Made by a program: the position numbers and the translations under genes | In this document: piece by piece, positions 33,461-62,013 of the stretch | Layout of the letters: the number at the start of each line of letters is the position of its first letter | Numbering within the stretch: position 1 is the stretch's first letter | Notes under the pieces: model-generated | Databases searched by the model: none | What the model saw: only the letters and a program-made list of their open reading frames with translations | What the model was told of the DNA's origin: nothing | NCBI RefSeq assembly: GCF_013032505.1 | Contig: NZ_WQCG01000002.1 | Span: 186,001 to 250,000, forward strand | DNA length: 64,000 nucleotides | Source of the DNA: Ruegeria atlantica | GTDB lineage: Bacteria; Pseudomonadota; Alphaproteobacteria; Rhodobacterales; Rhodobacteraceae | Reading direction: 5' to 3'

Positions 33461-33584
33461 GAAGCTGTCCGAAGTGTCCGTTATCTGGGCAGAAAGCAAT
33501 GGGCGCTGAACGCCTGCGATCATCCACTGACGACGAGGTCACAACCGGTTGCACGGCGATCCAGAGGGTTTGGACTACTGAGCG

Positions 33585-45541: not shown

Positions 45542-46076
45542 CATTATATATGAATCAAACAATATTCAGCTTAGGAGTTCGAAATTAGCGTTTACTTATC
45601 GAACATTGAACACGGGTAATGCCTTGAAAACGCAACTCTTGTTCAACCTTATACACACTCAAAGTGCGAAGCCGCACTGTTGCCAGGCTTGGACCCGGAT
45701 CGAGACTCCAACTAATCCGCTTTTTGGAAAAAACACACTGCTGCTAGTCCCAAGAACCTGATGGGTAGGCAGGTATGCAAGGCGCTGCCGGAGCGCCAAC
45801 CGAAGCGTGGGCCGAACAAAACAATCGCGACTTCGAAAATCTGTTTAACTTTGCCAATAACGCACCCCGTATCATGTGCCGACGAGGTTTGTCTGGAAAG
45901 ACAACGTGAAACAGACAACGCTTGACGCCGACCAGAAGGTCTTGACACAAGCACTCTAATATCGCTTGTATACTAATGAAAATCGACAAGGAAAGCCTGA
46001 CAGCCGAGCGGCTTGTTGGTGCGACTTCCTTGGCTCGGATTTGGACCATGATTTGACACGCCAAATGGGGGATCAG
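45542..46076. other. Intergenic region before the enamidase gene
   Basis: About 535 AT-richer bases. An antisense open frame runs through part of it, but its residues look random and it continues through the enamidase gene, so I do not call it. The only signal I can support is the MarR-type site at 45966-45976, about 100 bases ahead of the enamidase start, which marks the likely promoter. Confidence 0.5.
45966..45976. promoter_or_regulatory. MarR-type operator upstream of enamidase
   Basis: TTGTATACTAA; on the minus strand this is TTAGTATACAA, identical over 11 bases to the site upstream of ferredoxin (55564-55574). It lies about 100 bases before the enamidase ATG. It links this gene to the sites in the 52.6-57.4 kb region. 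Confidence 0.6.
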
Positions 46077-47246
46077 ATGGCTGACGCACCAAAAGACACG
46101 CCGGAAAAGGGTCGCACACTCATCCGGAACATCAGTTTGCTTCTGACGGGTGATCTGGATGCGCCTATTGCCGACAGCGATTGCCTTCTCATTGAGGATG
46201 GCGTGATTGTGGGTTTTGAGGGTGGCGATGCGGATCGCATCATTGATGCCTCTGGCTGTGCGGTCGCGCCGGGTCTGATTGATGGGCATTGCCACCCGGT
46301 ATTCGGCGATTGGACCCCACGCCAAAGTCAGCTTGGCTGGATTGAAATGAATGTGAACGGTGGCGTCACAAGCTTTATCTCGGCGGGCGAAGTTCACCTG
46401 CCCGGCCGCCCCAAGGACGCCGAAGGCGTCAAGGCGTTGGCGATGGTGGCGCAACGTTGTTATTCGAACTTCCGGCCTGCCGGTGCCAAGGTTCTGGCGG
46501 GCGCGCCCGTGCCGGAACTTGATTTTGACCGCAATTTCTACGCCGAAATCAAAACGGCTGGAATTCGGCATATCGGAGAGATTGGTCTCGGAACCGTGGC
46601 AAAAGGCCCGGACGCTGCACGCGTTACCGGTTGGTGTCGGGAATTGGGAATTGAGACCATCATGCACACTGGTGGCCCTTCGATCGCAGGCTCTCATGAT
46701 GTGCGTGCTGCTGACGTGCTTGAGGCGCAACCGGATGTGGTCAGCCATATCAATGGCGGCCCGACGTCAATTTCCCAGGATGAAATCCGAGAGCTCTGCC
46801 GTCACGCAAAAGGTGCACTTGAAGCCGTACATAACGGTAATGAAAAATCCGTAATCGTAACGCTGGAGGGGGCGCTGGCCGAAGACCGTTTGGCCGATTT
46901 CCTGATCGGAACCGACGCACCGGCAGGATCGGGTGTGCAGCCGAACGGAATGCTGCGCATGGCAACTCTGCTGGCCAGTTTTGGCGGATTGCCTGCCGAA
47001 CAAGCGTGGTGCTGCGGAACCGGGAACGTGGCAAAAAGACGGGATCTGGCGCAGGGAATCGTCGCGCCCGGCCGACCAGCCGATCTGGTGTTCATGGATC
47101 GTCCCGACGGATCGGTTGGCAAGAATGTTTTGGAAGCCATGGCAGTGGGCAACATCCCCGGAGTTGGGGCCGTTATGATTGATGGCAAGATGCGTACCGG
47201 ACGCTCGCGTTCCACCCCACCTGCGGCGCGTGTACCGATTGCTTAG
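46077..47246 (+). CDS. Enamidase-like amidohydrolase
   Basis: 389 residues from the ATG at 46077, with GGGG six bases ahead. Two-metal amidohydrolase: His71 and His73 in LIDGHCHPVFGDW, bridging Glu168 in HIGEIGLGT, His197 in IMHTGG, His224 in SHINGG and Asp280 in IGTDAPAGSG. A Glu in place of the usual carboxylated Lys, together with this spacing, fits what I recall of enamidase from nicotinate fermentation, which opens 6-oxo-tetrahydronicotinate to 2-formylglutarate. The length also fits. The exact substrate may be another cyclic enamide. It is monocistronic, with a MarR-type site upstream and terminators behind. Confidence 0.78.
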   Translation: MADAPKDTPEKGRTLIRNISLLLTGDLDAPIADSDCLLIEDGVIVGFEGGDADRIIDASGCAVAPGLIDGHCHPVFGDWTPRQSQLGWIEMNVNGGVTSFISAGEVHLPGRPKDAEGVKALAMVAQRCYSNFRPAGAKVLAGAPVPELDFDRNFYAEIKTAGIRHIGEIGLGTVAKGPDAARVTGWCRELGIETIMHTGGPSIAGSHDVRAADVLEAQPDVVSHINGGPTSISQDEIRELCRHAKGALEAVHNGNEKSVIVTLEGALAEDRLADFLIGTDAPAGSGVQPNGMLRMATLLASFGGLPAEQAWCCGTGNVAKRRDLAQGIVAPGRPADLVFMDRPDGSVGKNVLEAMAVGNIPGVGAVMIDGKMRTGRSRSTPPAARVPIA

Positions 47247-47273
47247 AAACCCAACAACGTAGGCTAGTAGTTT

Positions 47274-47304
47274 GACCGACCATCTAAACGGTGGTCGGCC
47301 TTTT
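47274..47304 (+). terminator. Terminator after enamidase
   Basis: CCGACCA (47276-47282) pairs with TGGTCGG (47292-47298), followed by CCTTTT. It starts about 30 bases after the stop. Confidence 0.65.
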
Positions 47305-47486
47305 GGGCAATCTGTAGATACGATTTTGGAGTGATTGAATCTATCGGTACCTGACACTTGCGGAGGATTCCTCTTGGGCAGGCGGCGCTCAAACGCGGCG
47401 ATATGTACGGCGGGTTCGACCGGTGTCTACACCAAGCATTTGAAGCCCGTCTGACAAACGGTTTTCTGCACTTTAAGTGTTGGGGT

Positions 47487-47509
47487 GGGGGCACAAATGC
47501 CCCCTTTTT
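47487..47509 (+). terminator. Strong hairpin with T-run between convergent genes
   Basis: GGGGGCA (47487-47493), loop CAAA, TGCCCCC (47498-47504), then TTTTT. It sits seven bases beyond the stop of the minus-strand thiolase-like gene and has its T-run in the plus direction. It isolates the enamidase transcript from the operon on the other strand. Confidence 0.75.
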
Positions 47510-47515
47510 GTTTGC

Positions 47516-48664
47516 TTAAAGCGACGCTTCGCTCCCCAGAATGGTTGTGAATTCGTTCGAGAACGTACCGCCATTTCCATGCGCAATTGCGATGTTCACA
47601 TTGTCGATCTGCCGGTCTCCGCCATCGCCCCGGATTTGGGTTGCTGCCTCGATCAGGCAGAACAAGCCATACATGCCGGGGTGCACGCAGCTTAGCCCGC
47701 CGCCATTGGTGTTCACCGGCAGCGAGCCGCCTGGCGCGATGTTGCCATCGGCCACAAATGCCCCGGCCTCGCCCTTTTTCACAAAGCCCATATCTTCGAG
47801 GAACAGCAGCGTGTTGATGGTAAAGGCGTCATAAAGCTCGACCACGTCCACATCCTTGGTGGTGACACCGGCCATCTCGAACGCACGTTTCGAACTTTCG
47901 GCCGCACAGGTGGTGGTCAGGGTCGCAGCCTGACTGATCTCGCGATGGGAAATGGCATTGCCGCCACCCAGGAAATAGGCAGGCTTTTCCTGATAATCCT
48001 TTGCGCGGTCGGCTGAGGTCACGATGATCGCGGCACCGCCATCCGACATCAGGCAGCAATCCAGAACGGCCAGTGGATCGGCAACCATGGGCGAGTTCAG
48101 ATACTCCTCCATCGTCAGGTCATCCTGCATTGTCGCGTCGGGGTTCAGCTGGGCCCATTTCCGGGCCGAGATGGCGACATGACCGAAATGCTCTTTGGGC
48201 ACGTTGAATTCGTGCATATAGCGTTGCGCGGTAAAGGCATAACCCGGGACCGGGACCATTGGCTCATAGGCGCGTTCCCATTGGGGGGTTTCAATCAACC
48301 CGTTGAGGTCACGTGCAGATTTCGCGTTTGATCCGTAGCAGATCAAAACATTCTTACACAGGCCTGCTTGAATCGCCATGGTGGCCTCGACCAGATAGGA
48401 CATGAAGGACGAGCCACCCACCATGTCCGAATTCGCCCATGTCGGTTTTATGCCCAAATACTCGGCAATCGAAAGGGTCGGAAAGAAGTGGTAGAATGTG
48501 CCGCCACAAACGCCGTCGATTTCGGACAAATCCATGCCAGCATCGGCCAGCGCGTTTTGCGTTGCCTTGGCGATCAGTTCCATAGGTGAGGTGTTTGGCG
48601 TTTTGCCAAGACCCCAATAGCCTTTGCCGACGATTGCGGATTTGCCGCGAAGTGCATGTGCCAT
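47516..48664 (-). CDS. Thiolase-like protein (SCP-x/Ltp2 type) lacking the usual nucleophilic cysteine
   Basis: 382 residues with thiolase folds at both ends. Where thiolases have the acyl-accepting Cys at the start of the helix after the second strand, this protein reads DMVGGSSFMSYLV (residues 80-92) with no Cys. The C-terminal half has VELYDAFTIN, CVHPGMYGLFCL and IAHGNGGTFS. This set is closer to the Ltp2-type aldolases that work with a DUF35 partner than to true thiolases. It could cleave a beta-hydroxyacyl-CoA by a retro-aldol reaction. The DUF35 gene directly upstream in the operon supports a complex. It is the last gene of the ligase operon. Confidence 0.75.
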   Translation of the reverse strand: MAHALRGKSAIVGKGYWGLGKTPNTSPMELIAKATQNALADAGMDLSEIDGVCGGTFYHFFPTLSIAEYLGIKPTWANSDMVGGSSFMSYLVEATMAIQAGLCKNVLICYGSNAKSARDLNGLIETPQWERAYEPMVPVPGYAFTAQRYMHEFNVPKEHFGHVAISARKWAQLNPDATMQDDLTMEEYLNSPMVADPLAVLDCCLMSDGGAAIIVTSADRAKDYQEKPAYFLGGGNAISHREISQAATLTTTCAAESSKRAFEMAGVTTKDVDVVELYDAFTINTLLFLEDMGFVKKGEAGAFVADGNIAPGGSLPVNTNGGGLSCVHPGMYGLFCLIEAATQIRGDGGDRQIDNVNIAIAHGNGGTFSNEFTTILGSEASL

Positions 48665-48675
48665 GTTTGAATTCC

Positions 48676-49089
48676 CTATTCCGCGGGCTTGAAGAACACG
48701 GCGGCTTCGCCGGATTTTGCGTTGGGGCCGAAATCGGGGGTCATCACCACGGCCTGTACTTTCATGCCAATGGTGATCGCTTCGTTGTCCACGTCCAAAA
48801 TGCGGCTGAACATGCGTGGGCCTTCATCCAGATCAATCAGCACGTTGTTGATGTCACCGCCATACTTTGCAGCGCGCCGGATAATGGTCGAGGCAAAGAC
48901 GGTGCCGCGGCCCGAGGCTTCGACCCATTCCAGATCGTCTGCTCCGGTGGTGGGGGAGAGGGCCCGTGGGTAGAAATTGTACTCGCCCGTGGTTTTTGAA
49001 CGCTGGATCAGGAATTTGCCAGCAGCAAGACCGGAACGGAATGCCGCGTCGGCCTGAGGGCTGGCTTTGGGAAGCGAAAGGTCAGTCAT
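48676..49089 (-). CDS. DUF35 / OB-fold protein with degenerate zinc ribbon
   Basis: 137 residues from the ATG at 49089. The normal N-terminal rubredoxin-like knuckle (RCxxCG ... CPxCG) is recognisable but reads RSKTTG (residues 30-35) and SPTTG (residues 45-49), so all four Cys are replaced by Ser or Thr. The OB-fold part (WVEASGRGTVFASTIIRR, then GMKVQAVVMTPDFG) is intact. DUF35 proteins partner thiolase-like enzymes such as Ltp2 or BbsB. Here zinc binding must be lost, while the CoA-handling OB domain may persist. It lies between the acyl-CoA dehydrogenase and thiolase-like genes. Confidence 0.78.
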   Translation of the reverse strand: MTDLSLPKASPQADAAFRSGLAAGKFLIQRSKTTGEYNFYPRALSPTTGADDLEWVEASGRGTVFASTIIRRAAKYGGDINNVLIDLDEGPRMFSRILDVDNEAITIGMKVQAVVMTPDFGPNAKSGEAAVFFKPAE

Positions 49090-49105
49090 GTGTCGTCCTT
49101 GATTT

Positions 49106-50734
49106 TCACGCGGCAAAGATCGCCGCAGAATGCGTAGGTTCTGGATTGAGGATAAGATGCCGCAGCAACCCGGCTTCAGGCAGGATGCGCGCCCGGACGT
49201 GGGCTGCGGCTGCGCGCAACAATTCGGGTTCCGGGGCCTCATCCGCGGCAGCTTCGAGATCGGCCCAGACGCGACCGAAATAAACCAGGCCGGTCAGGCG
49301 CATGTAATCTGTGGCAGATGGTCCGATGTCGGCGCTTGCCTGCATGGCCTTGGTGGCCGCCTTCCAGGCGTCGATGGCGTCTGCCAGTTCCAGGGAGGTT
49401 GGCCCCTCTGCTACCAATTCGACAAATGCATTTGCCGCCGCGCCATCGTTTGCCCGAATTGCGCGGCGGGCCACTCCGGTGGCCAGAACACCATTGGTGC
49501 CTTCGTAGATGGCCATGATGCGGCTGTCGCGCATGATCTGTTCAACCCGGTATTCCTTGCAGAACCCGTAGCCACCGTGGATTTGCACCGCCTGGCTTGA
49601 GGCCGCATTGACCGCATCGGTTGCAAACGCCTTGCAGGTCGGCGTCAGGATATCCAGCAGGCCCTGATCTGCACCCAGATCCATGTCCACAAAGGTACGA
49701 TACGCCATGGCCCGGCAGCCCAGCGTATAGGCGTAAATATCCAGCAGCATACGCTGCACATCGCCGTGTTCAGTGATCAGCGCGGTGCCCTGGGGCGTGG
49801 TGCCCTGACGTCGACCGGCGGCGTGGGTCCGAGCCCGCTGAAACGCGACATCCATCTGACCAACGGCTTGGAGGGTCACGTCCAGACGTTCGGCATTCAT
49901 CATGGTGAACATGGTGGCCAGTCCTTGACCTTCCTTGCCCAGCAATTCAGCCTGTGCGCAATCGAATGCCATCTGACAGGTGGGTGAGCCGTGCATGCCC
50001 ATCTTTTCTTCGATGCGGACCGTTTGAACCGTGTTGCGTGTTCCGTTCGGTAACACTGCGGGGCAGGCAAACAGGCTTAGCCCACGCACGCCGGGCGCGG
50101 CATCCGGTGTCCGCGCGAGCACAAGATGCAACACATTGTCGGTGTAATCGTGGTCGCCGCCCGAAATAAAGATCTTGTTTCCGCTGAGCGTGTAACCATT
50201 ACCCTCAGGTGTCGCCGTGGTCTTGATCCGGCCCAGATCTGACCCCGCATCCGGTTCGGTCAGACACATGGAGGCCATCCATTCACCCGATACCAGCGGC
50301 GGTAGCAGCCGTGCCTTTTGGTCTTCATTGCCGGAAGCACTTACGGTTCGGATGCACCCCTGCGCCAGGCTCAGTACCATCTCATAGGAAATACAGGCGC
50401 CAGCCAGCATGTCTGCCAGAACGGCACCCAGAATGTGTGGCAACTCCTGTCCGCCAAACTCTTCTGGTGCGCAAAGGCCCGTCCAACCCGCTTCGGCATA
50501 GCGCTTATAGGCGGTGACCATTTCAGGTGGCATCCGCACACGGCCATTTTCCAGCCGCGCGCCTTGCTCCTCGCCGATCATGTCCAGAGGCGCAATCTCG
50601 GTGTTGATGAAACGGCCTAGGGCGGAAATTAGGGCCTCGGCCAGATCGTCGCTCCAATCCGGCAAACGCTCAGGTCGGCTGGTGTGCTTGAGGACAAAGG
50701 CAATCTCAGCCTCTGAAGCGGTGTAGTCGATCAT
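49106..50734 (-). CDS. Acyl-CoA dehydrogenase
   Basis: 542 residues. CLTEPDAGSDLGRIKTTATP, GNKIFISGGDHDYTDNVLHL and EEKMGMHGSPTCQMAFD are FAD and substrate motifs. The catalytic Glu is expected in AIYEGTNGVLATGVA. It has the longer C-terminus also seen in the dehydrogenase at 43711. It introduces a double bond into the CoA ester made by the ligase with which it is coupled (4-base overlap). The substrate is probably not a plain fatty acid, given its neighbours. Confidence 0.88.
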   Translation of the reverse strand: MIDYTASEAEIAFVLKHTSRPERLPDWSDDLAEALISALGRFINTEIAPLDMIGEEQGARLENGRVRMPPEMVTAYKRYAEAGWTGLCAPEEFGGQELPHILGAVLADMLAGACISYEMVLSLAQGCIRTVSASGNEDQKARLLPPLVSGEWMASMCLTEPDAGSDLGRIKTTATPEGNGYTLSGNKIFISGGDHDYTDNVLHLVLARTPDAAPGVRGLSLFACPAVLPNGTRNTVQTVRIEEKMGMHGSPTCQMAFDCAQAELLGKEGQGLATMFTMMNAERLDVTLQAVGQMDVAFQRARTHAAGRRQGTTPQGTALITEHGDVQRMLLDIYAYTLGCRAMAYRTFVDMDLGADQGLLDILTPTCKAFATDAVNAASSQAVQIHGGYGFCKEYRVEQIMRDSRIMAIYEGTNGVLATGVARRAIRANDGAAANAFVELVAEGPTSLELADAIDAWKAATKAMQASADIGPSATDYMRLTGLVYFGRVWADLEAAADEAPEPELLRAAAAHVRARILPEAGLLRHLILNPEPTHSAAIFAA

Positions 50735-52575
50735 GAGGCACCCTTTCCTGGCACGATCACATCCTCGCTTTCGTCATAGAGCGCGACGACCGCATCGGCC
50801 CGCAGCTCCAGTGCAAGGCGTTGATTGATGTACCCTTTGTCGGTGATTTCGTTCTTTTGAACCGACGGGGCATCACGTTCGACGCGAACACGTTTCACGC
50901 GTGTGGCGCTGCCGGTTTGTCTGGCGTTGTACGCGACCAACCGCTCGGAAATAAACGCGCGCACAGCAGGATCGTCGGCATAACTTGCCAAAGTGTCATT
51001 GCGTCCGGTAAGGGCTTTGCACTCATCTGCATTGAGGAACAGTAGCGCGCCAATTTCGGTCCGGTCATGGCCGGTAATGACCGCATCAGACGCAATCGGG
51101 CTAAGCGCTTGCAGTAAGGCAACACGTAGGTTGCCCACGGCGACCCAGGTGCCCGTCATCAGTTTGAAGTTTTCCGAGATGCGGCCATCAAAAACGATGC
51201 CCTGCGATGGATCATCGGGATCCTGCAGCCGTCCCGCATCGCCTGTCAGGAAGTACCCTTCGTCATCAAATGCCTCAATGGCTTTTTCGGGGTTGTTCAG
51301 ATAGCCTGTTGTCACATGCGGCCCACGCACGCGCATCTCCAGCTTGCCGCCGTTGGGCAGGAACTTGAGTTCGGACCCCGGCCCGGGCACGCCGATAACG
51401 TCCGCCTTGTCGATTGGGAAATGCACACAGGTGGCCATCATCGCCTCGGTCAGGCCCCAGGCGCTGACAAACGGGATATTTTCGCCGCGTTCCTGAACGC
51501 CCAATTGTTCCAGGCCTTCCCAAAGATGGTCCGGTAGCCCGGCACCTGAGAAAAAGATCAGATCAAGCCGTTTGAAAAAGGCGCTGCGAAAGGCAGTGTC
51601 TTCGCGCAGGACCGGCAACAGCATGTCAAAACCGCGCGGGACGTTGAAAAACAGGGTGGGTGAGACATCGCGCACGTTGCGAATTGTCTTTTCAATTTCT
51701 CCCGGCACGGGTTTGCCATCATCGACATAAAAGCTGCCGCCGTTGCGCAGCATCATGTTGAAGTTGAAGTTGCCGCCGAACGTATGGTTCCAAGGCAACC
51801 AATCTACCACGACAGGCGGGGCGCTTTCCAGAAACGGCCAGATCTGGGCTACGGCTTCTTGCGTCGCCAGCATCATGCGCTGCGAGACGATCACTCCCTT
51901 GGGCAATCCGGTCGAGCCGGAGGTGAAAAGGATCTTGGCCAACGTGTCGTGATCGATCGCTGCCCGCGCTTGGGCAACCTGTTCACCAGCTATGAATTCA
52001 AGGGCGTGGTCAAACGTTAGCGCGCCATTGTCCGACAGCTGTTCGATGTCTTCCGAGGCGAGGTATTCGAAAGCCCGGGCAAAGTCTTTGGCATCATCCG
52101 CATAGGCCATTCCGGGGTTGGTGGTCCGAATGATATGGCGAAGTTTGGTCAACGACTCGTCGAACAGAGAATACGGAACGGATACCGGCACCACCGGAAT
52201 GCCTACGTGCATAGCGGCCAGCATCAGTAGGCCATGCCGGACCGAATTGCCGGACAGGATCAACAGCGGGCGATCTTTGCCCAAGCCCTTGCTGAGAAGA
52301 AATGCAGCCAGTGAGCGGGTTTGAGCCAAAGCTTCGGAATAGGTGACGTTAATCCATTCACCGTCCCGCCCGCGTTCGGCCAGAAACAGGCGATCAGGAG
52401 TTTCTTCGGCCCAGCGTTCCAAATATTCGGAAACACATTGTACATCCATATTCAGCGGGTAGGGGCTGCGCAGGACAAAGGCGCCGTCACCCAGGTCTTC
52501 ACGTAACACCTGTGAAGGCGCGAATTTTTCGAGATACACCAAGCCGTTTTCTTTTTGTCGGGCTGAAATGCTCAT
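50731..52575 (-). CDS. Feruloyl-CoA-synthase-like acyl-CoA ligase
   Basis: 614 residues from the ATG at 52575 with GAGAGGA ahead. P-loop KILFTSGSTGLPKGVIVS; DWLPWNHTFGGNFNFNMML, SAWGLTEAMMATCVHF and GYFLTGDAGRLQDPDDPSQG; SENFKLMTGTWVAVGNLR and QKNEITDKGYINQR close the C-terminal domain. This layout belongs to the feruloyl-CoA synthase family. No vanillin or protocatechuate genes are nearby, so the acid may be a different aromatic or cyclic one. First gene of a ligase-dehydrogenase-DUF35-thiolase-like operon with MarR- and TetR-type sites in its promoter. Confidence 0.82.
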   Translation of the reverse strand: MSISARQKENGLVYLEKFAPSQVLREDLGDGAFVLRSPYPLNMDVQCVSEYLERWAEETPDRLFLAERGRDGEWINVTYSEALAQTRSLAAFLLSKGLGKDRPLLILSGNSVRHGLLMLAAMHVGIPVVPVSVPYSLFDESLTKLRHIIRTTNPGMAYADDAKDFARAFEYLASEDIEQLSDNGALTFDHALEFIAGEQVAQARAAIDHDTLAKILFTSGSTGLPKGVIVSQRMMLATQEAVAQIWPFLESAPPVVVDWLPWNHTFGGNFNFNMMLRNGGSFYVDDGKPVPGEIEKTIRNVRDVSPTLFFNVPRGFDMLLPVLREDTAFRSAFFKRLDLIFFSGAGLPDHLWEGLEQLGVQERGENIPFVSAWGLTEAMMATCVHFPIDKADVIGVPGPGSELKFLPNGGKLEMRVRGPHVTTGYLNNPEKAIEAFDDEGYFLTGDAGRLQDPDDPSQGIVFDGRISENFKLMTGTWVAVGNLRVALLQALSPIASDAVITGHDRTEIGALLFLNADECKALTGRNDTLASYADDPAVRAFISERLVAYNARQTGSATRVKRVRVERDAPSVQKNEITDKGYINQRLALELRADAVVALYDESEDVIVPGKGAS

Positions 52576-52652
52576 TTTTCCTCTCCCTGCCATCGGGTCG
52601 CGCTGGGCGCGGCATGATGCATCATTTGAAAATCAAGCTATCTAAAAGTTTG

Positions 52653-52664
52653 TTAGTATGCAAA
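52653..52664. promoter_or_regulatory. MarR-type operator in the ligase/SDR promoter
   Basis: TTAGTATGCAAA; together with the flank (GTTAGTATGCAAATG) it matches the ferredoxin site GTTAGTATACAAATG at 14 of 15 positions. It lies between the divergent ligase and SDR genes, 78 bases before the ligase ATG. Confidence 0.6.
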
Positions 52665-52668
52665 TGTA

Positions 52669-52686
52669 TTATTGATCGTTCACTAA
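52669..52686. promoter_or_regulatory. Second TetR-type operator
   Basis: TTATTGATCGTTCACTAA matches the inner 18 bases of the site at 34824-34843 at 15-16 positions (allowing for its asymmetric positions) and is palindromic at 14 of 18. It begins five bases after the MarR-type site, so both repressors may act on the ligase/SDR promoter. Confidence 0.55.
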
Positions 52687-52783
52687 TTGGCGATTCAATG
52701 GGTATGATGCAACAGGAAATCGTTCAAGACAGGAGCTTGATTTCGTTGCGTCATGGCTTTCGAAGCGTACAGGGAGATTTGAA

Positions 52784-53545
52784 TTGAGAATCGAAAACGC
52801 ATCCGCAATCGTGACTGGCGGTGCTTCAGGGCTGGGGTTTGCGACGGCCGAATATCTTGCATCCTGCGGGGCGAAAGTGGCCTTGTTTGACTTGCCCGGC
52901 GATAAGCTGGACGAGGCGGCAGAGAAACTGGGGGTCATAGCCGCGCCCTGCGACATCACCAATGAGGAACAGGTCACAGCGGCGCTGGACACGGCGATTG
53001 CCGCCAATGGTTTGCCCCGCGTTATCGTCAATTGCGCCGGCGTTACGCATGGCGAGCGGATCGTTGGGCGCAACGGCCCGGCCGCGCTGGGCGGGTTCGC
53101 CCGAACCGTACAGATCAACTTGATCGGTACCTTCAACGTTATGCGTCTGGCGGCCGAGCGGATTATGCAAAACGACCCGCTTGAGGATAACGAGCGCGGG
53201 ATCATCATCAACGCCGCTTCAGCTGCTGCTTTTGAAGGGCAGGTCGGGCAGGCGGCCTACTCCGCTTCGAAAGGTGGCGTCGCGAGCCTGACCCTGCCGG
53301 CAGCGCGCGAGTTCGCGCGTTCAGGTATTCGGGTGATGGCGATTGCGCCGGGTATATTCTCGACGCCAATGATGGATTTGCTGCCGCAAGAGGTTCAGGA
53401 CAGCCTGGGCGCCAAGGTACCTTTCCCGGCGCGCCTTGGAAAGCCGGCTGAATTTGCGCGCTTGGCTGCGCACATGATCGAGAACACCATGCTGAACGGC
53501 GAGTGCGTTCGCCTGGACGGTGCGATCCGTCTTGAACCCAAGTAG
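52784..53545 (+). CDS. SDR-family 3-hydroxyacyl-CoA dehydrogenase-like protein
   Basis: 253 residues, TTG start with AGGGAG seven bases ahead. TGGASGLGFATAEYL binds NAD; NAASAAAFEGQVGQ holds the catalytic Ser region and YSASKGG the Tyr/Lys. PGIFSTPMM and GKPAEFARLA follow the type-10 hydroxysteroid / 2-methyl-3-hydroxybutyryl-CoA dehydrogenase pattern, so oxidation of a 3-hydroxyacyl-CoA (branched or ring-bearing) is likely. Divergent from the ligase operon; the crotonase follows after nine bases. Confidence 0.85.
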   Translation: MRIENASAIVTGGASGLGFATAEYLASCGAKVALFDLPGDKLDEAAEKLGVIAAPCDITNEEQVTAALDTAIAANGLPRVIVNCAGVTHGERIVGRNGPAALGGFARTVQINLIGTFNVMRLAAERIMQNDPLEDNERGIIINAASAAAFEGQVGQAAYSASKGGVASLTLPAAREFARSGIRVMAIAPGIFSTPMMDLLPQEVQDSLGAKVPFPARLGKPAEFARLAAHMIENTMLNGECVRLDGAIRLEPK

Positions 53546-53554
53546 GTCTTTGCA

Positions 53555-54325
53555 ATGGAATACACACATATCACCTCAGAAACAGACGGCCCAGTCGGTA
53601 TCCTAACCATGGACCGACCCGCCAAGTTCAATGCGATCAATCACGGTCTGCTGTTCGACATCGAGCATTATTTCGATACCCTTCCCGATGAGATCGGCGC
53701 CGTGGTGATCCGCAGTTCCGGCGAGCATTTCTGCGCCGGGCTGGACCTGTTAGAACATTCGATGCGCGACGCGGCCGGGGCCATGCATGAATGCCGCCTA
53801 TGGCACCGGATTTTCGACAAGATCGAATACGGCCGGGTTCCGGTTGTTGCCGCATTGAACGGCGGTGTGCTGGGCGGCGGGATGGAACTGGCCATGACCG
53901 CTCATATCCGGGTTTCGCAACAGGACACATTCTATGAACTGCCAGAAGGACGGCGCGCGATCTTTGTAGGCGGCGGCGCCACCGTACGTGTTGGCCGGAT
54001 CATTGGGGCCAGCCGGATGATGGAGATGATGCTGACCGGTCGCCGATACGGTTCGGACGAAGGGCTGCAGCTCGGGCTCGCACATTATGTTGAGCCGGAC
54101 GGAACCGTGTTCGATAAGGCGATGGAGCTTGCCCGGCGTGTGACCGAGAATGCGCCTTTGTCCAACTACATGATGATGCAGGCGATCACGCGCATTAACG
54201 ATATGTCGGCCAGTGATGGCTTATTTACTGAAAGCCTGGCTGCCGCGATTGCCCAATCCTCACCCGAAGCCCGGGCCGGAATGGAGGCGTTTCTGAACAA
54301 GACGGGAAAGCGGGACAATCAGTAA
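53555..54325 (+). CDS. Crotonase-family enoyl-CoA hydratase/isomerase
   Basis: 256 residues. ILTMDRPAKFNAINHGLLFD, oxyanion-hole motifs HFCAGLDLLEH and AALNGGVLGGGMELAMTAHI, and YELPEGRRAIFVGGGATVRV with a catalytic Glu. It likely hydrates the unsaturated CoA ester made by the dehydrogenase of the divergent operon. It is not a clear hydroxycinnamoyl-CoA hydratase-lyase. A strong terminator follows. Confidence 0.82.
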   Translation: MEYTHITSETDGPVGILTMDRPAKFNAINHGLLFDIEHYFDTLPDEIGAVVIRSSGEHFCAGLDLLEHSMRDAAGAMHECRLWHRIFDKIEYGRVPVVAALNGGVLGGGMELAMTAHIRVSQQDTFYELPEGRRAIFVGGGATVRVGRIIGASRMMEMMLTGRRYGSDEGLQLGLAHYVEPDGTVFDKAMELARRVTENAPLSNYMMMQAITRINDMSASDGLFTESLAAAIAQSSPEARAGMEAFLNKTGKRDNQ

Positions 54326-54332
54326 GCCCCGA

Positions 54333-54398
54333 GACACGCGGGATCCGGTGTGAGAGCATTTCACCGGATCCCGGTGTCGGGCCGGGGCAGAGCCCCGG
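54333..54398. terminator. Double hairpin between convergent crotonase and ferredoxin reductase genes
   Basis: GGGATCCGGTG (54340-54350) pairs perfectly with CACCGGATCCC (54362-54372), extended by GACAC/GTGTC outside a small bulge. A second hairpin CCGGGGC-AGA-GCCCCGG follows at 54382-54398. It lies between two stops, so it probably ends transcripts from both sides. Confidence 0.7.
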
Positions 54399-54402
54399 TT
54401 GG

Positions 54403-55209
54403 TCAATCGACAAAGGCGCGTTCGACCACAAAAGTTGCAGGTTTGTTATTCGCGCCTTCTTCCAGCCCGAACCCCTCCAGTGCGGCCTTGGTATCCTGCA
54501 GCATCGCCATCGAGCCGCAGATCATCCCCCGATCCGTTTCAGGTGAGATTGGCGACAGGCCCAGATCGTCGAACACTTTGCCGGATGCCATCAGATCGGT
54601 GATCCGGCCTGTGAACGGATAATCCTCACGCGTTAGGGTGCAATAGTGCCGCAAATTCTGCGCCATCTCGCCGACCAGCGGATCTGATCTGAGCGCGGCG
54701 ACAAGTTCCTTGCCATAGTCCAGCTCGCCCTGTTCTCGGCAGGTGTGCGTTAGGATCACTTCGTCGAACTTCTCATAAGTTTCAGGGTCGCGGATCAGCG
54801 ATGCAAAAGGCGCAATGCCGGTTCCGGTCGAGAACATCCACAGCCGTTTACCCGGCAATAGCGCATCATTGACCAATGTGCCGGTGGGCTTTTTGCGCAT
54901 CAAAATCGTGTCGCCTTCGCGGATTTTCTGCAGGTGTTCAGTCAGCGGGCCGCCGGGCACCTTGATCGAATAGAACTCGATCTCTTCGTCCCAGTTGGGG
55001 GATGCAATGGAATAGGCACGGAACACGGGTTTTTCCGCATTTGGCAGGCCAATCATCACAAACTCACCGGAGCGAAACCGGAAAGATGCTGGGCGGGTGA
55101 TGCGGAATTTGAACAACCGGTCGGTGTAGTGCTTCACCTCGGTCACGGTTTCGGCGAACACGCCCGCGGGAACTGGGAATTCGGCCTTGGTCGTAGAATC
55201 CAGCGACAT
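54403..55209 (-). CDS. fpr: Ferredoxin-NADP reductase
   Basis: 268 residues, bacterial subclass I type. FAD-binding RAYSIASP, NADP-binding STGTGIAPFASLI, ICGSMAML and the C-terminal VVERAFVD. It moves electrons between NADPH and ferredoxin. It is coupled to the ferredoxin gene upstream (nine-base gap), with a MarR-type site in front, which suggests electron supply for an enzyme of the same regulon rather than only housekeeping. Confidence 0.9.
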   Translation of the reverse strand: MSLDSTTKAEFPVPAGVFAETVTEVKHYTDRLFKFRITRPASFRFRSGEFVMIGLPNAEKPVFRAYSIASPNWDEEIEFYSIKVPGGPLTEHLQKIREGDTILMRKKPTGTLVNDALLPGKRLWMFSTGTGIAPFASLIRDPETYEKFDEVILTHTCREQGELDYGKELVAALRSDPLVGEMAQNLRHYCTLTREDYPFTGRITDLMASGKVFDDLGLSPISPETDRGMICGSMAMLQDTKAALEGFGLEEGANNKPATFVVERAFVD

Positions 55210-55218
55210 CTTGATCTC

Positions 55219-55548
55219 CTATTCTGCTGGGGCTTCGGAGAAAAGCGCCAGCTTCCCCTCTTTGCCGTTCCAGTCGTCTGCGTCGGGCATTGGGTCTTTC
55301 TTTTCGGTGATGACAGGCCAGGCTTCCGCGAATTTTCCGTTTAGCTCGACCCATACCTCCATCCCGTCTTCTGTGTCGGGGCGGATTGCGTCGGCTGGGC
55401 ATTCCGGTTCACACACACCGCAGTCGATGCATTCGTCGGGATGGATGACCAGCGTATTCTCGCCCTCGTAGAAGCAATCCACAGGGCAAACTTCCACACA
55501 ATCAGTGAATTTGCAGTTGATGCAGTTATCGGTGACGACGTAAGTCAT
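55219..55548 (-). CDS. fdxA: Seven-iron ferredoxin (FdxA type)
   Basis: 109 residues. [20 protein letters not shown] and [14 protein letters not shown] give the [3Fe-4S]/[4Fe-4S] pattern, followed by the C-terminal extension typical of FdxA (ferredoxin II). Soluble electron carrier. The start is 15 bases from a MarR-type site. In the regulon it could feed a reductase or oxygenase that is outside the window. Confidence 0.92.
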
Positions 55549-55563
55549 AGGGCTGCCTAATTG

Positions 55564-55575
55564 TTAGTATACAAA
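55564..55575. promoter_or_regulatory. MarR-type operator upstream of ferredoxin
   Basis: TTAGTATACAAA, one mismatch from the perfect palindrome TTAGTATACTAA at 55667. Only 15 bases before the ferredoxin ATG, a position suited to repression. Confidence 0.65.
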
Positions 55576-55666
55576 TGAGTATTGTGAGAATTACCTGCCT
55601 GTCAATACGTTTCTGTGCAAAGGAAGTCTTCCCGGGGTGGGACTCTTGACCGGAAAGAGAAAAAAA

Positions 55667-55678
55667 TTAGTATACTAA
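55667..55678. promoter_or_regulatory. Perfect MarR-type palindrome upstream of the CaiB gene
   Basis: TTAGTATACTAA is a perfect 12-base palindrome, flanked by ACAAA on the right. It lies about 140 bases before the CoA-transferase ATG and about 120 before the ferredoxin ATG, so it may serve both directions. Confidence 0.68.
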
Positions 55679-55818
55679 CAAAAAAGAGCGCTTTTGCAGG
55701 GTGGTGTGGCAGGCAAGCCGTTTGTCATGACGTCGGGCTCATCCTGTAGGGCAAGACATCGGATTCGGTCCTGGAAGCAACCTGGCTGATCGTAATAGAA
55801 TTTTGAAAGGTTCAGGCC

Positions 55819-56931
55819 ATGAGCACCCCCTTGCACGGATTGAAAGTGATCGAGTTGGCCCGCATTCTGGCCGGGCCGTGGATCGGGCAGACACTGGCTG
55901 ATCTGGGAGCAGATGTACTAAAGGTCGAAAGCCCCGAGGGGGATGATACACGCAAATGGGGCCCTCCGTTCATCGAGCGCGACGGCGACAGGACGGCTGC
56001 CTATTTCCACGCGGCCAATCGGGGCAAAGACAGTATCGCGCTGGATTTCCGGGATGAGGTTGACCGGGCGAAGCTGTTGGATCTGATCCGCGATGCGGAT
56101 GTGCTGATTGAAAACTTCAAGGTCGGCGGGTTGAAGAAATTCGGTTTGGATTATGACAGCGTGAAGCAGGTCAATCCCCGGCTGGTCTATGCGTCTGTCA
56201 CTGGCTTCGGTCAGGATGGCCCTTATGCCCATCGCGCGGGTTACGATTTTCTGATCCAGGGCATGAGCGGGATCATGGACCTGACGGGCGACCCGGAAGG
56301 CGAGCCGCAAAAGATCGGAGTGGCTTTTGCCGACATATTCACAGGCCTGTATGGCGTGATCGGCATTCAGGCCGCGCTTGCCGAACGAGAGCGATCGGGG
56401 CAGGGGCAGCACGTAGATTTGAGCTTGCTGGACTGCATGACGGGCGTTCTGGCCAATCAGGCGATGAACTATCTGGCTTCGGGCAAGTGCCCAACACGGT
56501 TGGGCAATGCCCATCCCAACATCGTCCCTTACCAAGTGTTTCCGGTGGCAGATGGGCATATCATCATTGCCTGCGGAAACGACCGGCAATATGCAAGCCT
56601 GTGCGAAATACTCGGCCTGTCCGGTCTGATCGACGATGCACGGTTCAAATCCAATGCGGATCGCGTGGAAAATCGCGCCGCATTGACAGATCTGCTGACG
56701 AATTCATGTCGGAAATGGAATAAGGCAGATTTTTTGGCGGCACTTGAACAGCGCGGTGTGCCGGGCGGTCCGATCAACTCTGTCCACGAGGCGCTGAGCG
56801 ACCCGCAGTTTCAGCATCGCGAGATGCAGATCAGCCCGGAAGGTGTGCCTGGTTTACGCACTCCGATCCGGTTCTCCCGATCTGAATTGCGGTTGGACAA
56901 GGCGTCGGCCAAACGGCCTGTGAAATCATGA
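55819..56931 (+). CDS. CaiB/BaiF family CoA-transferase
   Basis: 370 residues, type III CoA-transferase. LKVIELARILAGPWIGQTLA, DLGADVLKVESPEGDDTRKW, NRGKDSIALDF and ENFKVGGLKKFGLDYDSVK; the catalytic Asp is expected in the MDLTGDPEG region. It moves CoA between acids without ATP, often from succinyl-CoA or formyl-CoA to a dicarboxylic acid. It could activate the diacid formed after ring opening. The stop overlaps the convergent MarR gene by six bases. Confidence 0.87.
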   Translation: MSTPLHGLKVIELARILAGPWIGQTLADLGADVLKVESPEGDDTRKWGPPFIERDGDRTAAYFHAANRGKDSIALDFRDEVDRAKLLDLIRDADVLIENFKVGGLKKFGLDYDSVKQVNPRLVYASVTGFGQDGPYAHRAGYDFLIQGMSGIMDLTGDPEGEPQKIGVAFADIFTGLYGVIGIQAALAERERSGQGQHVDLSLLDCMTGVLANQAMNYLASGKCPTRLGNAHPNIVPYQVFPVADGHIIIACGNDRQYASLCEILGLSGLIDDARFKSNADRVENRAALTDLLTNSCRKWNKADFLAALEQRGVPGGPINSVHEALSDPQFQHREMQISPEGVPGLRTPIRFSRSELRLDKASAKRPVKS

Positions 56932-57351
56932 GATTTTTCGTAGAATACGGATCAGGTTTCGCCGTTCGGCCGCCGTTAACGGCTTGAGCGTTTCGTTAGT
57001 GATTTGTTGGCCGACCTCTTTCATCTGCGCGACCATCGCCTCGCCTTCCGGGGATAGCGAAATCAACGTGCGCCGTTTGTCGTCCGGATCGGGTTCGACA
57101 ACCGTCAATCCTTTTTGGCGCAGGCGATCAACGACCCCTTTGATTGTCGCAACATCCATCGCCGCCAGCCGCCCCAACCGGTTTTGAGAACACTTGCCCA
57201 AATCGGCAATGCGGATCAGGGCGGCAAACTGCGTGGGCGTCAGGCCTTCCAAAGTGTGCGATTGGAATATCGCTGCGTGGCGTTGGTTGGCCAACCGCAG
57301 CAAATAGCCGACCTGCTCGTCAAGCGCATAGCTTTCAATGGATTCCGTCAT
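56926..57351 (-). CDS. MarR-family regulator
   Basis: 141 residues from the ATG at 57351 (AGGGG ahead; an ATG at 57372 would add seven). Winged helix: GLTPTQFAALIRIADLGKCS, RLAAMDVATIKGVVDRLRQK and GLTVVEPDPDDKRRTLISLS. MarR proteins beside feruloyl/coumaroyl-CoA ligases usually sense the CoA thioester. The repeated TTAGTATACTAA-type sites make it the natural candidate for their ligand-sensitive repressor (inference). It lies just downstream of livF on the same strand. Confidence 0.85.
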   Translation of the reverse strand: MTESIESYALDEQVGYLLRLANQRHAAIFQSHTLEGLTPTQFAALIRIADLGKCSQNRLGRLAAMDVATIKGVVDRLRQKGLTVVEPDPDDKRRTLISLSPEGEAMVAQMKEVGQQITNETLKPLTAAERRNLIRILRKIS

Positions 57352-57372
57352 GACGGCCCCTGCCTGATTCAT

Positions 57373-57395
57373 TTGTTTGTACTACAATAAACAAA
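57373..57395. promoter_or_regulatory. Inverted repeats at the MarR start
   Basis: TTGTA-C-TACAA (57377-57387) is a perfect palindrome around one base, inside an outer repeat TTGTTT ... AAACAA (57373-57378 and 57389-57394). It is similar to, but not the same as, the TTAGTATACTAA sites. Probably autoregulation. Confidence 0.45.
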
Positions 57396-57423: not shown

Positions 57424-58125
57424 TTAGACAGCAAGATAGGTGTTTGAAATTTCTGGATTTTCGTCGAGATCAGCAAAGCTGCCCTCGAACCGCATTTCGC
57501 CTTTTTCGATGATGTACGCTCTGTCCGACACGATCCGCGCAAAGTGCAGGTTCTGTTCGCTGATCAGCACCGACAACCCTTCTCGTTTCAGCTCCGCAAT
57601 CACGCGTGCCATTTGTTCGACAATAACCGGCGCGATCCCTTCTGATGGTTCGTCCAATAGGACAAGTTTGGGATTGCCCATCAACGTGCGGGCGATGGTT
57701 AGCATTTGCTGTTCACCGCCCGAGAGTTGCTTGCCCAGATTCTTGCGGCGTTCGGCCAAATTGGGAAACAACTCGAACAGATGTTTCAGAGTCCATTCGG
57801 GCGCATCCGGGCGCGGTTCGCGGCGCCCAACTTCGAGGTTTTCTTCTATGGTCAGGTCGCCGAAAATCCGACGGTCTTCGGGGACGTAGCCCAACCCAAG
57901 GCGGCAGATGGCATGAGGGGTCTGTCTCTGAATCTCGTTCTCGGCATAGCGGATGGTGCCATCAATGTGGCGCACCAATCCCATGATAGATTTCATTGTG
58001 GTTGATTTACCGGCACCATTTCGGCCCATCAGCGCAACCACTTCGTTTTCGCCGACGTTCAGCGAAACACCATTTAGAATTTGTGCACGACCGTACCACG
58101 CGCCAAGGTTCATGACATCAAGCAT
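57424..58125 (-). CDS. livF: Branched-chain-type ABC transporter ATPase (LivF)
   Basis: 233 residues from the ATG at 58125. Walker A GRNGAGKST, signature LSGGEQQMLTIARTL and Walker B LVLLDEPSEGIAP. It opens LDVMNLGAWYGRAQILNGVS as in LivF. It overlaps livG by eight bases. The transporter belongs to the HAAT family, whose members carry amino acids, amides, aromatic acids and other acids. The context suggests the substrate of the catabolic system. Confidence 0.9.
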   Translation of the reverse strand: MLDVMNLGAWYGRAQILNGVSLNVGENEVVALMGRNGAGKSTTMKSIMGLVRHIDGTIRYAENEIQRQTPHAICRLGLGYVPEDRRIFGDLTIEENLEVGRREPRPDAPEWTLKHLFELFPNLAERRKNLGKQLSGGEQQMLTIARTLMGNPKLVLLDEPSEGIAPVIVEQMARVIAELKREGLSVLISEQNLHFARIVSDRAYIIEKGEMRFEGSFADLDENPEISNTYLAV

Positions 58126-58891
58126 GGCTGTTCTCCGCTTCAAAGACCGTGCCGCCGCCTAGATAGACCTCTTGGACCAGCGGGTTGGTGCGGATTTCAG
58201 ATCCTGTGCCCTCGGCGATCAATTCGCCACGGTTCAGGACCAAGATTCGATGGGCATGGGCAAAAACGACGTCCATGTCATGTTCGGTAAACACCACGCT
58301 GACGCCACCCTTGGCCACGATTTCAGCTGTCAATGCCATCAGGGCAAGCCGTTCGGACGGCGCCATGCCTGCGGTTGGTTCATCCATCAAAAGAAGGGCA
58401 GGGTCGTGGGCCAGCGCAATCGCCAGTTCCAGGCGTTTCAGGTCGCCATAGGCCAGTTCCGAGCAAGCCCGGCCGGCCTGATCCTGCATCGAGACCAGCT
58501 CTAGTAAGGCCATCGCCTCATCCGCGTATAGCCGCGTGGCCCGTGAAAACAGGTCGAACACCCGGCGGTGATGCGAGATCAACGCCATCTGGACGTTTTC
58601 TACGACAGTCATAGATAGAAACGTCGCTGTAATCTGAAACGTACGGCCAACGCCCATACGCCAAATCTTGCGCGGAGGATGGCCGATCAAAGCCTTGCCA
58701 CGTAATGATACCGAGCCGGTATTGGGTTTCAAATAGCCGTTCAGCATGTTGAAGCAAGTCGTCTTTCCGGCGCCGTTAGGGCCGATGAGAGCAAGAAACT
58801 CGCCCTCCTTCAGGTCAAAATTGACATCCTTGACTGCGTGTACGCCGCCGAAGGATTTGGACAGATTGCGAACCTCGAGAACGTTGGTCAT
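58118..58891 (-). CDS. livG: Branched-chain-type ABC transporter ATPase (LivG)
   Basis: 257 residues from the ATG at 58891, which overlaps the permease stop (ATGA). LEVRNLSKSFGGVHAVKDVN, Walker A GPNGAGKTT, MGVGRTFQITATFLSMTVVE, ELAYGDLKRLELAIALA and LLLMDEPTAGMAPSE are the LivG features. Works with LivF and the fused permease. Confidence 0.9.
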   Translation of the reverse strand: MTNVLEVRNLSKSFGGVHAVKDVNFDLKEGEFLALIGPNGAGKTTCFNMLNGYLKPNTGSVSLRGKALIGHPPRKIWRMGVGRTFQITATFLSMTVVENVQMALISHHRRVFDLFSRATRLYADEAMALLELVSMQDQAGRACSELAYGDLKRLELAIALAHDPALLLMDEPTAGMAPSERLALMALTAEIVAKGGVSVVFTEHDMDVVFAHAHRILVLNRGELIAEGTGSEIRTNPLVQEVYLGGGTVFEAENSHA

Positions 58892-60732: not shown

Positions 60733-60798
60733 CGTGCCACCGTCCCTTGTTTGAGTTCTTATAGTGGGGCGGGGCACCTATGCCCCGCCGAAGCCGAC

Positions 60799-62013
60799 CT
60801 ATTCCGCCGGGCGCAGGGCTGCTGCTTCGTCTTCGCTAGGCAGGTAGTCTGTACCGTCGGCATAGACCCAATCCACCATCGCAGGCTTGCCGTCGACCAT
60901 TCCGGTCTTTCCGACATAGGCACCCATTGTGGATTGATGGTCAGCTGCACGGAAAGTGAATGGGCCCGTCGGGCTGCTTTCGACGGCCAAACCCTCCATT
61001 GCCGCCAGCAGGGCGTCAGTGTCGGTGGATCCGGCTTTTTGCAGTGCTGCGGCGATGGCAAGGATCGAGTTATAGCCAACGATGGAGCCTGTTTTGGGCG
61101 CTTCGCCGAACTTCTCAATATAGGCTTCTGCGAATGCCGTGTGGTCATCCGTAGCGATATCGGTTGAGGGGTACCCGGTGACGATCCATCCCTCGGGCGC
61201 TTCTGCCCCAAGTGGGTCAAGATATTCGGGTTCCCCGGTCAGCAATGACGCGACATCGCGATCCTCGAACAGGAATCGCAGCGAGCCTTCGCGAACAAAT
61301 TTCGCCAGATCGCCACCGAAGGTCACGTTGTAAATCGCATCCGGCTTTGCAGCCTCAAGCGCGCGGACGGTAGAACCGGCGTCGATTTTAAACAGCGGTG
61401 GCCATTGTTCTTCCACAAACTCAACATCGGGGCGAAGCTTGGTTAGTTCGGATTTGAACGCCTTCACCGCATCCTGCCCGTAGGCATAGTTAGGCGCGAC
61501 CGTTGCCCATTTCACAGCGTCCAGCTTTGCTGCCTGTTCGGCCAGCATAGCGGCCTGCATGTGCGTCGATGGGCGCAGGCGATAGGTGTACTTGTTGCCC
61601 TTAGACCAGACAATCGCGTCCGACAGAGGCTCAGAGGCCAGGAACAGAACTTCTTTCTGCTTTGCGAAATCCGAGACTGCCAATCCGATGTTGGACAGGA
61701 ATGTTCCAAAGATCAGAACCGCGCCGTCTTTCGAGACCAGTTCTTCGGCGATCCGGATCGCGGTGGCTGGATCACCGGTATCATCCCGACTGATCACTTC
61801 CAGTTGCTTGCCGTCGATCCCACCTGCGGCGTTGATCTGTTCGACCGCCAATTGCCAACCCTTCTTATAAGGTTCGGTAAAGGCGGGCAGGCGGGTATAG
61901 CTGTTCACTTCACCCAACACGATCGTGTCCTGCGCCAGGGTAATCCCGGCGGTCAAACCGGAAAAGGGCAGAGCAGCAAGCGCGCCCAGTACCGTGCGTC
62001 TGATCAGGTTCAT
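60799..62013 (-). CDS. Branched-chain-type ABC transporter substrate-binding protein
   Basis: 404 residues. N-terminal export signal with twin Arg (MNLIRRTVLGALAALPFSG) ending near TLAQD. The mature part has GWQLAVEQINAAGGIDGKQL, SRDDTGDPATAIRIAEELVS and KWATVAPNYAYGQDAVKAFK, as in HAAT-family binding proteins. GGGAGG precedes the ATG. It delivers the substrate to the fused permease. The ligand is unknown; relatives bind amino acids, amides or aromatic acids. Confidence 0.88.
   Translation of the reverse strand: MNLIRRTVLGALAALPFSGLTAGITLAQDTIVLGEVNSYTRLPAFTEPYKKGWQLAVEQINAAGGIDGKQLEVISRDDTGDPATAIRIAEELVSKDGAVLIFGTFLSNIGLAVSDFAKQKEVLFLASEPLSDAIVWSKGNKYTYRLRPSTHMQAAMLAEQAAKLDAVKWATVAPNYAYGQDAVKAFKSELTKLRPDVEFVEEQWPPLFKIDAGSTVRALEAAKPDAIYNVTFGGDLAKFVREGSLRFLFEDRDVASLLTGEPEYLDPLGAEAPEGWIVTGYPSTDIATDDHTAFAEAYIEKFGEAPKTGSIVGYNSILAIAAALQKAGSTDTDALLAAMEGLAVESSPTGPFTFRAADHQSTMGAYVGKTGMVDGKPAMVDWVYADGTDYLPSEDEAAALRPAE

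Follow-up and report, generated by a model that had tools for sequence, protein, structure and literature searches.

A repeated palindrome in the promoters of a 64,000-bp stretch of the Ruegeria atlantica genome (contig NZ_WQCG01000002.1; hereafter the window) is probably the operator of a MarR repressor of the BpsR/NicR type, encoded at 56926-57372, which would be released by 6-hydroxynicotinate and would control the reductive pathway of nicotinate catabolism. We put the probability of this reading at about 0.86. The operons carrying the palindrome would most likely form one nicotinate regulon under one MarR-type repressor. The same palindrome marks the reductive nicotinate pathway in many other Alphaproteobacteria.

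All the palindromes listed in a first-pass annotation of the window are present where it placed them; four (S1 to S4, Table 1) are strong, and all four lie in promoters. They follow the palindromic consensus T(C/T)(G/A)TTNGTATACNAA(C/T)(G/A)A; the 18-mer of S4 contains a perfect 12-bp palindrome, and that of S1 is unchanged in three other genomes of the genus (G009, G424 and G434). The looser relative noted near 57377, in front of the MarR gene, exists as well (S5), in a weak form here, and the same position scores 13-14 out of 18 in five relatives. Across the 5,124,961 bases of the genome, the core GTATACTAA is matched four times, at the four strong sites, whereas the pattern read backwards has 17 matches. 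In the window alone, the 12-mer is not significantly enriched when up to 3 mismatches are allowed: 7 copies were found versus 3.87 expected, and 7 or more turn up in 8 of 100 shuffles. The 15-mer TTTGTATACTAACAA with up to 3 mismatches gives 31 matches genome-wide, below the 68 of its reversed control, which indicates that loose matching alone is background. For these two reasons we used stricter scans of the genome, the genus and the class. At 0-1 mismatch, TTTGTATACTAACAA has three matches in the genome, all of them window sites. At 2 mismatches it has two, one elsewhere in the genome (C1:376284) and one 5.2 kb beyond the window, at window coordinate 69209, where the operon for a nicotinate dehydrogenase-like enzyme and 6-hydroxynicotinate reductase (HNR) starts. 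The first-pass annotation had proposed a compact regulon of several transcription units; the units it named belong to it, and the regulon is larger than claimed, reaching about 69.2 kb in window coordinates.

Conservation was assessed in 72 loci (1.70 Mb), 67 of them with HNR; the Ruegeria loci L021-L023, near-duplicates of genus genomes, were left out of the counts. The palindrome derived from the window, TTGTTAGTATACTAACAA, matched at 13 or more of 18 positions 119 times in these loci, compared with 29 times in the reversed sequences. The 18-mer TYRTTNGTATACNAAYRA, which was fixed after the loci of all 13 HNR-positive genomes of the genus and of 43 of the 68 HNR-positive genomes of the class (own genome included) had been viewed, was found with at most one mismatch in 13/13 HNR-positive versus 1/41 HNR-negative genomes of the genus (Fisher p 1.3e-11). 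The reversed pattern occurred in 5/13 and 13/41, respectively. All 31 sites in the HNR-positive genomes of the genus lie within 19 kb of HNR. In the class, again with the own genome included, the exact 18-mer was present in 19/68 HNR-positive and 4/317 HNR-negative genomes, and its reversed form in 2/385. The sites in the HNR-negative genomes G101, G194, G222, G281 and G421 had no query genes in their fetched flanks and were counted as background.

The sites lie in front of certain genes of the regulon. With up to 2 mismatches, and after matches below 40% identity and short upstream windows had been dropped (as in the held-out counts below), a site was found within 200 bp upstream of the gene for the FAD subunit in 36/57 cases, enamidase in 20/38, ferredoxin in 9/9, CoA ligase in 7/8, the short-chain dehydrogenase/reductase (SDR) in 7/8, ferredoxin reductase in 8/19, HNR in 6/67, MarR in 5/55 and CoA-transferase in 1/10. 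None was found by this test upstream of the UPF0280, PF06684, transporter, thiolase, OB-fold, dehydrogenase and hydratase genes. The reversed control gave a single match overall (ferredoxin, 1/9). The first-pass annotation had named two findings that would refute its reading: sites missing from orthologous promoters, or falling at random in coding regions at the same rate. Neither applies, as the sites occur in orthologous promoters across the 72 related loci and 0/589 gene-body windows carry one. In the other 25 alphaproteobacterial HNR loci, which served as a held-out set, a site lay within 300 bp of a nicotinate gene in 11/25 (8/22 without three loci that had shown an exact match before they were fetched), with 0/25 for the reversed control and 0/109 for gene bodies.

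We considered the possibility that the sites are chance AT-rich palindromes or bare promoter elements which no regulator reads. The window-only counts, the loose genome-wide matches and the four promoter-like matches in the region, which are not above shuffles (5.3), would agree with this. Yet it is refuted by the genome-wide core and by the genus, class and held-out counts with their reversed controls, and we regard it as vanishingly improbable. Chance and coding-region explanations alike are ruled out by the genus, upstream/gene-body and held-out counts.

Which pathway is marked follows from the genes. The distal operon, on the minus strand, encodes an FAD subunit, a molybdenum/iron-sulphur hydroxylase and a 497-residue protein, whose gene starts just beyond the end of the window. 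Downstream of it come the UPF0280 gene, two PF06684 genes, the Liv-type transporter genes and the MarR gene. At E 0.001 nothing in Pfam, NCBIfam or the PDB matched the 497-residue protein; it did match 26 plasmid records, the best of which, from Sulfitobacter (83% identity), is annotated as 6-hydroxynicotinate reductase, and by that annotation we assign the protein as the predicted HNR. The hydroxylase domains and the FAD subunit adjoin HNR and match nicotinate dehydrogenase (3hrd) among others. As aldehyde oxidoreductases score higher, the assignment of nicotinate as substrate rests on gene context. The enamidase is 93-95% identical to three Ruegeria records, its nearest named relatives; its start is likely the ATG at 46077 rather than the TTG at 45966, which lies inside the operator. 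By their sequences, then, the genes of the regulon correspond to the reductive nicotinate (vitamin B3) pathway as in Eubacterium barkeri and Azorhizobium. Such a reductive cluster has been described in E. barkeri, Azorhizobium caulinodans and Bradyrhizobiaceae SG-6C (PMC3511419), and for this reason we count the pathway as known. The earlier description of it as uncharacterised does not hold, since the regulon contains nicotinate dehydrogenase-like, HNR and enamidase genes.

Homologues of the UPF0280 gene were found in 67/67 HNR loci and homologues of the two PF06684 genes in 50/67 and 43/67; recurring beside HNR, these three genes are likely pathway components. HNR of E. barkeri draws electrons from ferredoxin. 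A ferredoxin-fed HNR would therefore explain why the genes for ferredoxin and ferredoxin-NADP reductase stand under the shared operator; the reductase gene is found near HNR in Sulfitobacter and Neorhizobium as well.

The regulator has a MarR winged-helix domain (PF01047, E 1.4e-10). Its best PDB matches are 2nnn (131 bits), named just 'probable transcriptional regulator', and BpsR (6pcp, 101 bits), the nearest characterised relative with a solved structure; the next distinct protein scores 50 bits. BpsR binds the nic promoters, and 6-hydroxynicotinate, contacted by Tyr15, His23, Arg26 and His32, abolishes its DNA binding (PMC6837509). At these four positions the window MarR has Tyr, Tyr, Arg and His and thus keeps three of the four contacts. 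All 55 MarR sequences compared across the loci, that of the window among them, keep Tyr15 and Arg26, and 42/55 keep His32. NicR of Pseudomonas putida does not keep the contacts of BpsR (PMC6837509). As in Bordetella (BpsR) and Pseudomonas (NicR), the MarR gene lies with nicotinate genes, here among the catabolic ones. The difference is that BpsR and NicR control the oxidative nic pathway, whereas here the HNR-dependent reductive pathway is concerned, and that position 23 differs. The likeness to BpsR points to 6-hydroxynicotinate as the ligand.

The first-pass annotation had instead expected a CoA thioester, arising in an uncharacterised pathway with a CoA ligase, to release the MarR protein. 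This would fit the operator in the ligase/SDR promoter in 7/8 genomes. It would also fit a weak PDB match (27 bits) to CouR, a MarR regulator of a CoA-thioester pathway. Yet the window MarR is far nearer BpsR than CouR, and the ligase (at least 80% identity) is present in only 8 of the 13 HNR-positive genomes of the genus, all 13 of which have the operator. By sequence, 6-hydroxynicotinate is the likelier inducer, and a CoA thioester is very improbable. Another regulator might also read the operator, with MarR a mere neighbour in the nicotinate regulon. Of the 15 HNR loci in whose fetched stretch no MarR homologue was found, five keep the site, though MarR could lie elsewhere there. However, a MarR homologue occurs in 52/67 HNR loci, 43 of these 52 with a site (matches below 40% identity dropped). 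MarR is also BpsR-like, and a degenerate copy of the site lies at its own start. We consider another regulator unlikely, and the first-pass suggestion of the adjacent MarR as the probable regulator stands.

The position of the sites agrees with repression. At the proposed, divergent promoters of the ferredoxin and CoA-transferase genes, S3 follows right behind the one and the -10 of the other lies within S4 (Table 1), and both -35 elements are kept in eight aligned genomes. In 111 promoter matches, the rows of which overlap for divergent genes, there are 71 occurrences of TTGAC within 60 bp of the operator, and 39 of these start 26-28 bp upstream of it. An operator placed at the end of the -10 element fits a repressor site. 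We propose, with transcription-unit boundaries predicted from the sequence, that the ligand-free MarR dimer would sit over the -10/start region of its target promoters. These would be those of the nicotinate dehydrogenase-HNR-UPF0280-PF06684 operon, of enamidase, of ferredoxin and ferredoxin reductase, of the CoA-transferase and of the two divergent operons that begin with the ligase and SDR genes. To a weak degree the promoter of the MarR gene itself would be included, an autoregulation through S5. The first intermediate, 6-hydroxynicotinate, would release MarR; reduced ferredoxin would then reduce 6-hydroxynicotinate, enamidase would open the ring, and the resulting C5 acid would pass through the glutarate-type CoA-transferase.

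Table 1. Proposed operator sites and genes in the window, and positions of the palindrome TATAGCGTRTACGCTATA in related loci
Feature	Position	Strand	Remarks
Operator S1, TCGCTTGTATACTAATGA	45962..45979	+	about 98 bp upstream of the enamidase ATG
Enamidase	46077..47246	+	opens the ring of 6-oxo-1,4,5,6-tetrahydronicotinate; 319 bits to enamidase 2vun
SCP2-type thiolase	47516..48664	-	ligase module
OB-fold partner of thiolase	48676..49092	-	ChsH2 C-terminal domain type; PF01796; start inferred
Acyl-CoA dehydrogenase	49106..50734	-	
CoA ligase, feruloyl-CoA-synthase-like	50731..52593	-	
Operator S2, TTGTTAGTATGCAAATGT	52650..52667	+	between the divergent ligase and SDR genes
SDR oxidoreductase	52784..53545	+	
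Enoyl-CoA hydratase family protein	53555..54325	+	
Ferredoxin-NADP reductase	54403..55209	-	
Ferredoxin FdxA	55219..55548	-	171 bits, cut-off 135
Operator S3, TTGTTAGTATACAAATGA	55561..55578	-	follows immediately after the proposed ferredoxin promoter, TTGACA-16-AATACT
Operator S4, AAATTAGTATACTAACAA	55664..55681	+	overlies the -10 of TTGACC-16-TAGTAT, the proposed promoter of the CoA-transferase gene
Class III CoA-transferase, succinate-glutarate type	55819..56931	+	NF052585, 528 bits, below the cut-off of 750
MarR regulator, BpsR/NicR-like	56926..57372	-	alternative start at 57351 possible
Operator S5, weak	57373..57390	-	MarR start; 12/18 match; differs from the 18-mer at 3 positions
Liv-type ABC transporter genes (F, G, HM, K)	57424..62013	-	many loci have orthologues close to HNR
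Two 'amino acid synthesis' family genes	62102..63261	-	PF06684
UPF0280 gene	63254..63973	-	directly downstream of HNR; true start may lie further upstream
TATAGCGTRTACGCTATA	L173:6599, 6775; L178:6588, 6764; L179:7632, 7764; L176:7845; L202:6352, 6561		

Several observations weigh against the reading of the palindrome as the operator of this MarR branch and of the nicotinate pathway. His23 of BpsR is Tyr in the window MarR, and His is found at this position in only 9/55 sequences; the own site of MarR in the window is weak; the Fisher tests ignore phylogeny; and no site (up to 2 mismatches) was found in 19/67 HNR loci, nor in 14 of the 25 held-out loci. One genome of the genus, G019, has MarR and no HNR. 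Its MarR (G019:C18:114470-114910, locus L004) is 92% identical to that of the window and keeps the start-site palindrome, and it looks like the leftover of a cluster loss. Furthermore, of the plasmid loci around related MarR genes that were selected for comparison, only 3/13 carry the motif (up to 2 mismatches). The first set gave 0/8 (Rhizobium, two Pantoea, Paraburkholderia, Caballeronia, Halomonas, Pseudosulfitobacter and Roseomonas); three of these loci have no annotation, and the Pseudosulfitobacter stretch begins inside HNR and so is without the promoter of that operon. The second set gave 3/5 (two Rhizobium and Phyllobacterium). The two Pantoea loci and one Azospirillum locus are oxidative nic loci without the operator, so the motif does not hold as operator for the whole of this MarR branch.

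Another palindrome, TATAGCGTRTACGCTATA, which shares the GTRTAC centre, was found with up to 3 mismatches in two copies each in the two Pantoea loci and Roseomonas and in one copy in Halomonas, the four loci from which it had been read off. Its reversed control gave 1 match (up to 4 mismatches, 13 loci), and the palindrome itself has 1 match in the 72 loci of the HNR set. Among the five loci fetched later, Azospirillum alone has it, in two copies with 4 mismatches between nicC- and nicX-like genes; it is also the only one of the five annotated with oxidative nic genes. This sister palindrome may possibly be the operator of the oxidative MarR branch and a lead for BpsR.

The site also varies within HNR loci. 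The best site in the held-out loci L188, L194, L195 and L198 drifts to forms like TCATATGTGTACAAACGA or ATATATGTACACATATGA; the drift in some lineages perhaps follows changes in the regulator. In L034 (5940-6063), the stretch that separates the dehydrogenase operon from a second, divergent Liv-type transporter contains a half-site-like TTGACACACTAACAA, and six genus relatives score 13/18 at this position.

The operator is associated with different enzymes in different lineages. Sites away from HNR genes were selected manually among those listed and scored within 300 bp, with 2 mismatches at most; the duplicate rows L077 and L084, whose genomes were already counted as L131 and L136, were left out. 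The reversed control was 0 throughout. The operator was found upstream of aldehyde:ferredoxin oxidoreductase in 3/4 genes, of a flavoprotein of 1170-1180 residues with GltD-like and PRK06222-like parts in 3/3 (one in a held-out HNR locus), of 2-oxoacid:ferredoxin oxidoreductase in 2/8 (two more sites start 288 and 308 bp before the open reading frame, outside the test), of ferredoxin reductase in 7/15 (most of the remaining ones follow a site-bearing ferredoxin gene) and of hydantoinase A, with caprolactamase alpha as its best match, in 6/26. Most hydantoinase and 2-oxoacid oxidoreductase genes thus lack the operator. Among the 67 HNR loci, 33 have enamidase alone and 13 hydantoinase alone; the fetched stretch of 19 shows neither, and two have both, the hydantoinases of these two being just 34-43% identical. 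The caprolactamase-like hydantoinase may replace enamidase and is a candidate second ring-opening enzyme. Hydantoinase A genes with the operator upstream include L051:21620-23725 and L150:2943-5018 in HNR loci and L158:2999-5083, which lies on a different contig of a genome with HNR. The window itself contains hydantoinase A/B, aminotransferase and arylmalonate-decarboxylase-like genes at 27914-33523; no operator scoring at least 13/18 was found there, and this hydantoinase A is just 34% identical to the HNR-linked type.

The enamidase itself exists in two types. That of the present genome (G000), G009, G424 and G434 is about 49% identical to the other type and has its own operator, whereas the other type is found at the ferredoxin/CoA-transferase junction in G002, G012, G023 and G432 and beside MarR in four more genomes. 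These two types and placements indicate that the operator persisted while one enzyme took the place of the other. In this survey of genes near HNR, the rows for the query proteins LIVG and MOFES were not used. One operator may define a class-wide reductive nicotinate regulon in which interchangeable modules serve at two demanding steps, a proposition that we see as evenly balanced. Ferredoxin reduction would be performed by ferredoxin-NADP reductase, aldehyde:ferredoxin oxidoreductase, 2-oxoacid:ferredoxin oxidoreductase or the large GltD-/PRK06222-like flavoprotein, and ring opening by either type of enamidase or by a caprolactamase-like ATP-dependent lactamase. MarR relatives of the oxidative nic pathway would read the sister palindrome with the same centre.

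Compared with the clusters of E. barkeri, Azorhizobium and Bradyrhizobiaceae, the ferredoxin/reductase operon, the CoA-transferase and the ligase module stand here under one operator; the words MarR, ferredoxin and enamidase do not occur in the main text of PMC3511419. The CoA-transferase may belong to a glutarate-type lower pathway as in Azorhizobium; it is succinate-glutarate-like, at a score under the equivalog cut-off. The ligase module resembles feruloyl-CoA and side-chain beta-oxidation modules in its ligase, dehydrogenase, hydratase, SDR and thiolase with OB-fold partner, and the top match of the ligase among the plasmid matches listed (25 of 39) is a feruloyl-CoA synthase (45.5%). Unlike those modules, it carries the nicotinate operator, and ligase orthologues (at least 80% identity) in the genus are restricted to eight genomes, every one HNR-positive. 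Its make-up thus suggests a side-chain beta-oxidation route co-marked by the nicotinate operator. That such a module joined the Ruegeria regulon and may channel pyridine-propanoid or 3-alkylpyridine compounds towards nicotinate is a speculative idea, which we think unlikely. Of oxygenases, a VanA-type Rieske protein gene has the operator 24 bp upstream in L025 (13293-14441), and annotated ring-hydroxylating dioxygenases sit upstream of the transporter genes in Sulfitobacter clusters; a role in demethylation of N-methylnicotinate (trigonelline) is possible.

Listings of open-licence papers on enamidase, HNR, the regulator and nicotinate breakdown in Ruegeria name no such operator. The pathway itself is already known, and what appears to differ from the described clusters is the regulon, with its shared operator over ferredoxin, CoA-transferase and ligase module. 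These results would provide a precise operator for a BpsR-like regulator, the recognition sequence of BpsR being called unclear in PMC6837509, and would unite the loosely annotated CoA and ferredoxin genes of Ruegeria relatives in a single regulon for vitamin B3 catabolism. The operator has led to ferredoxin-reducing enzymes and to a candidate second ring-opening enzyme, and would offer a route to those parts of the alphaproteobacterial reductive pathway that are still to be found.

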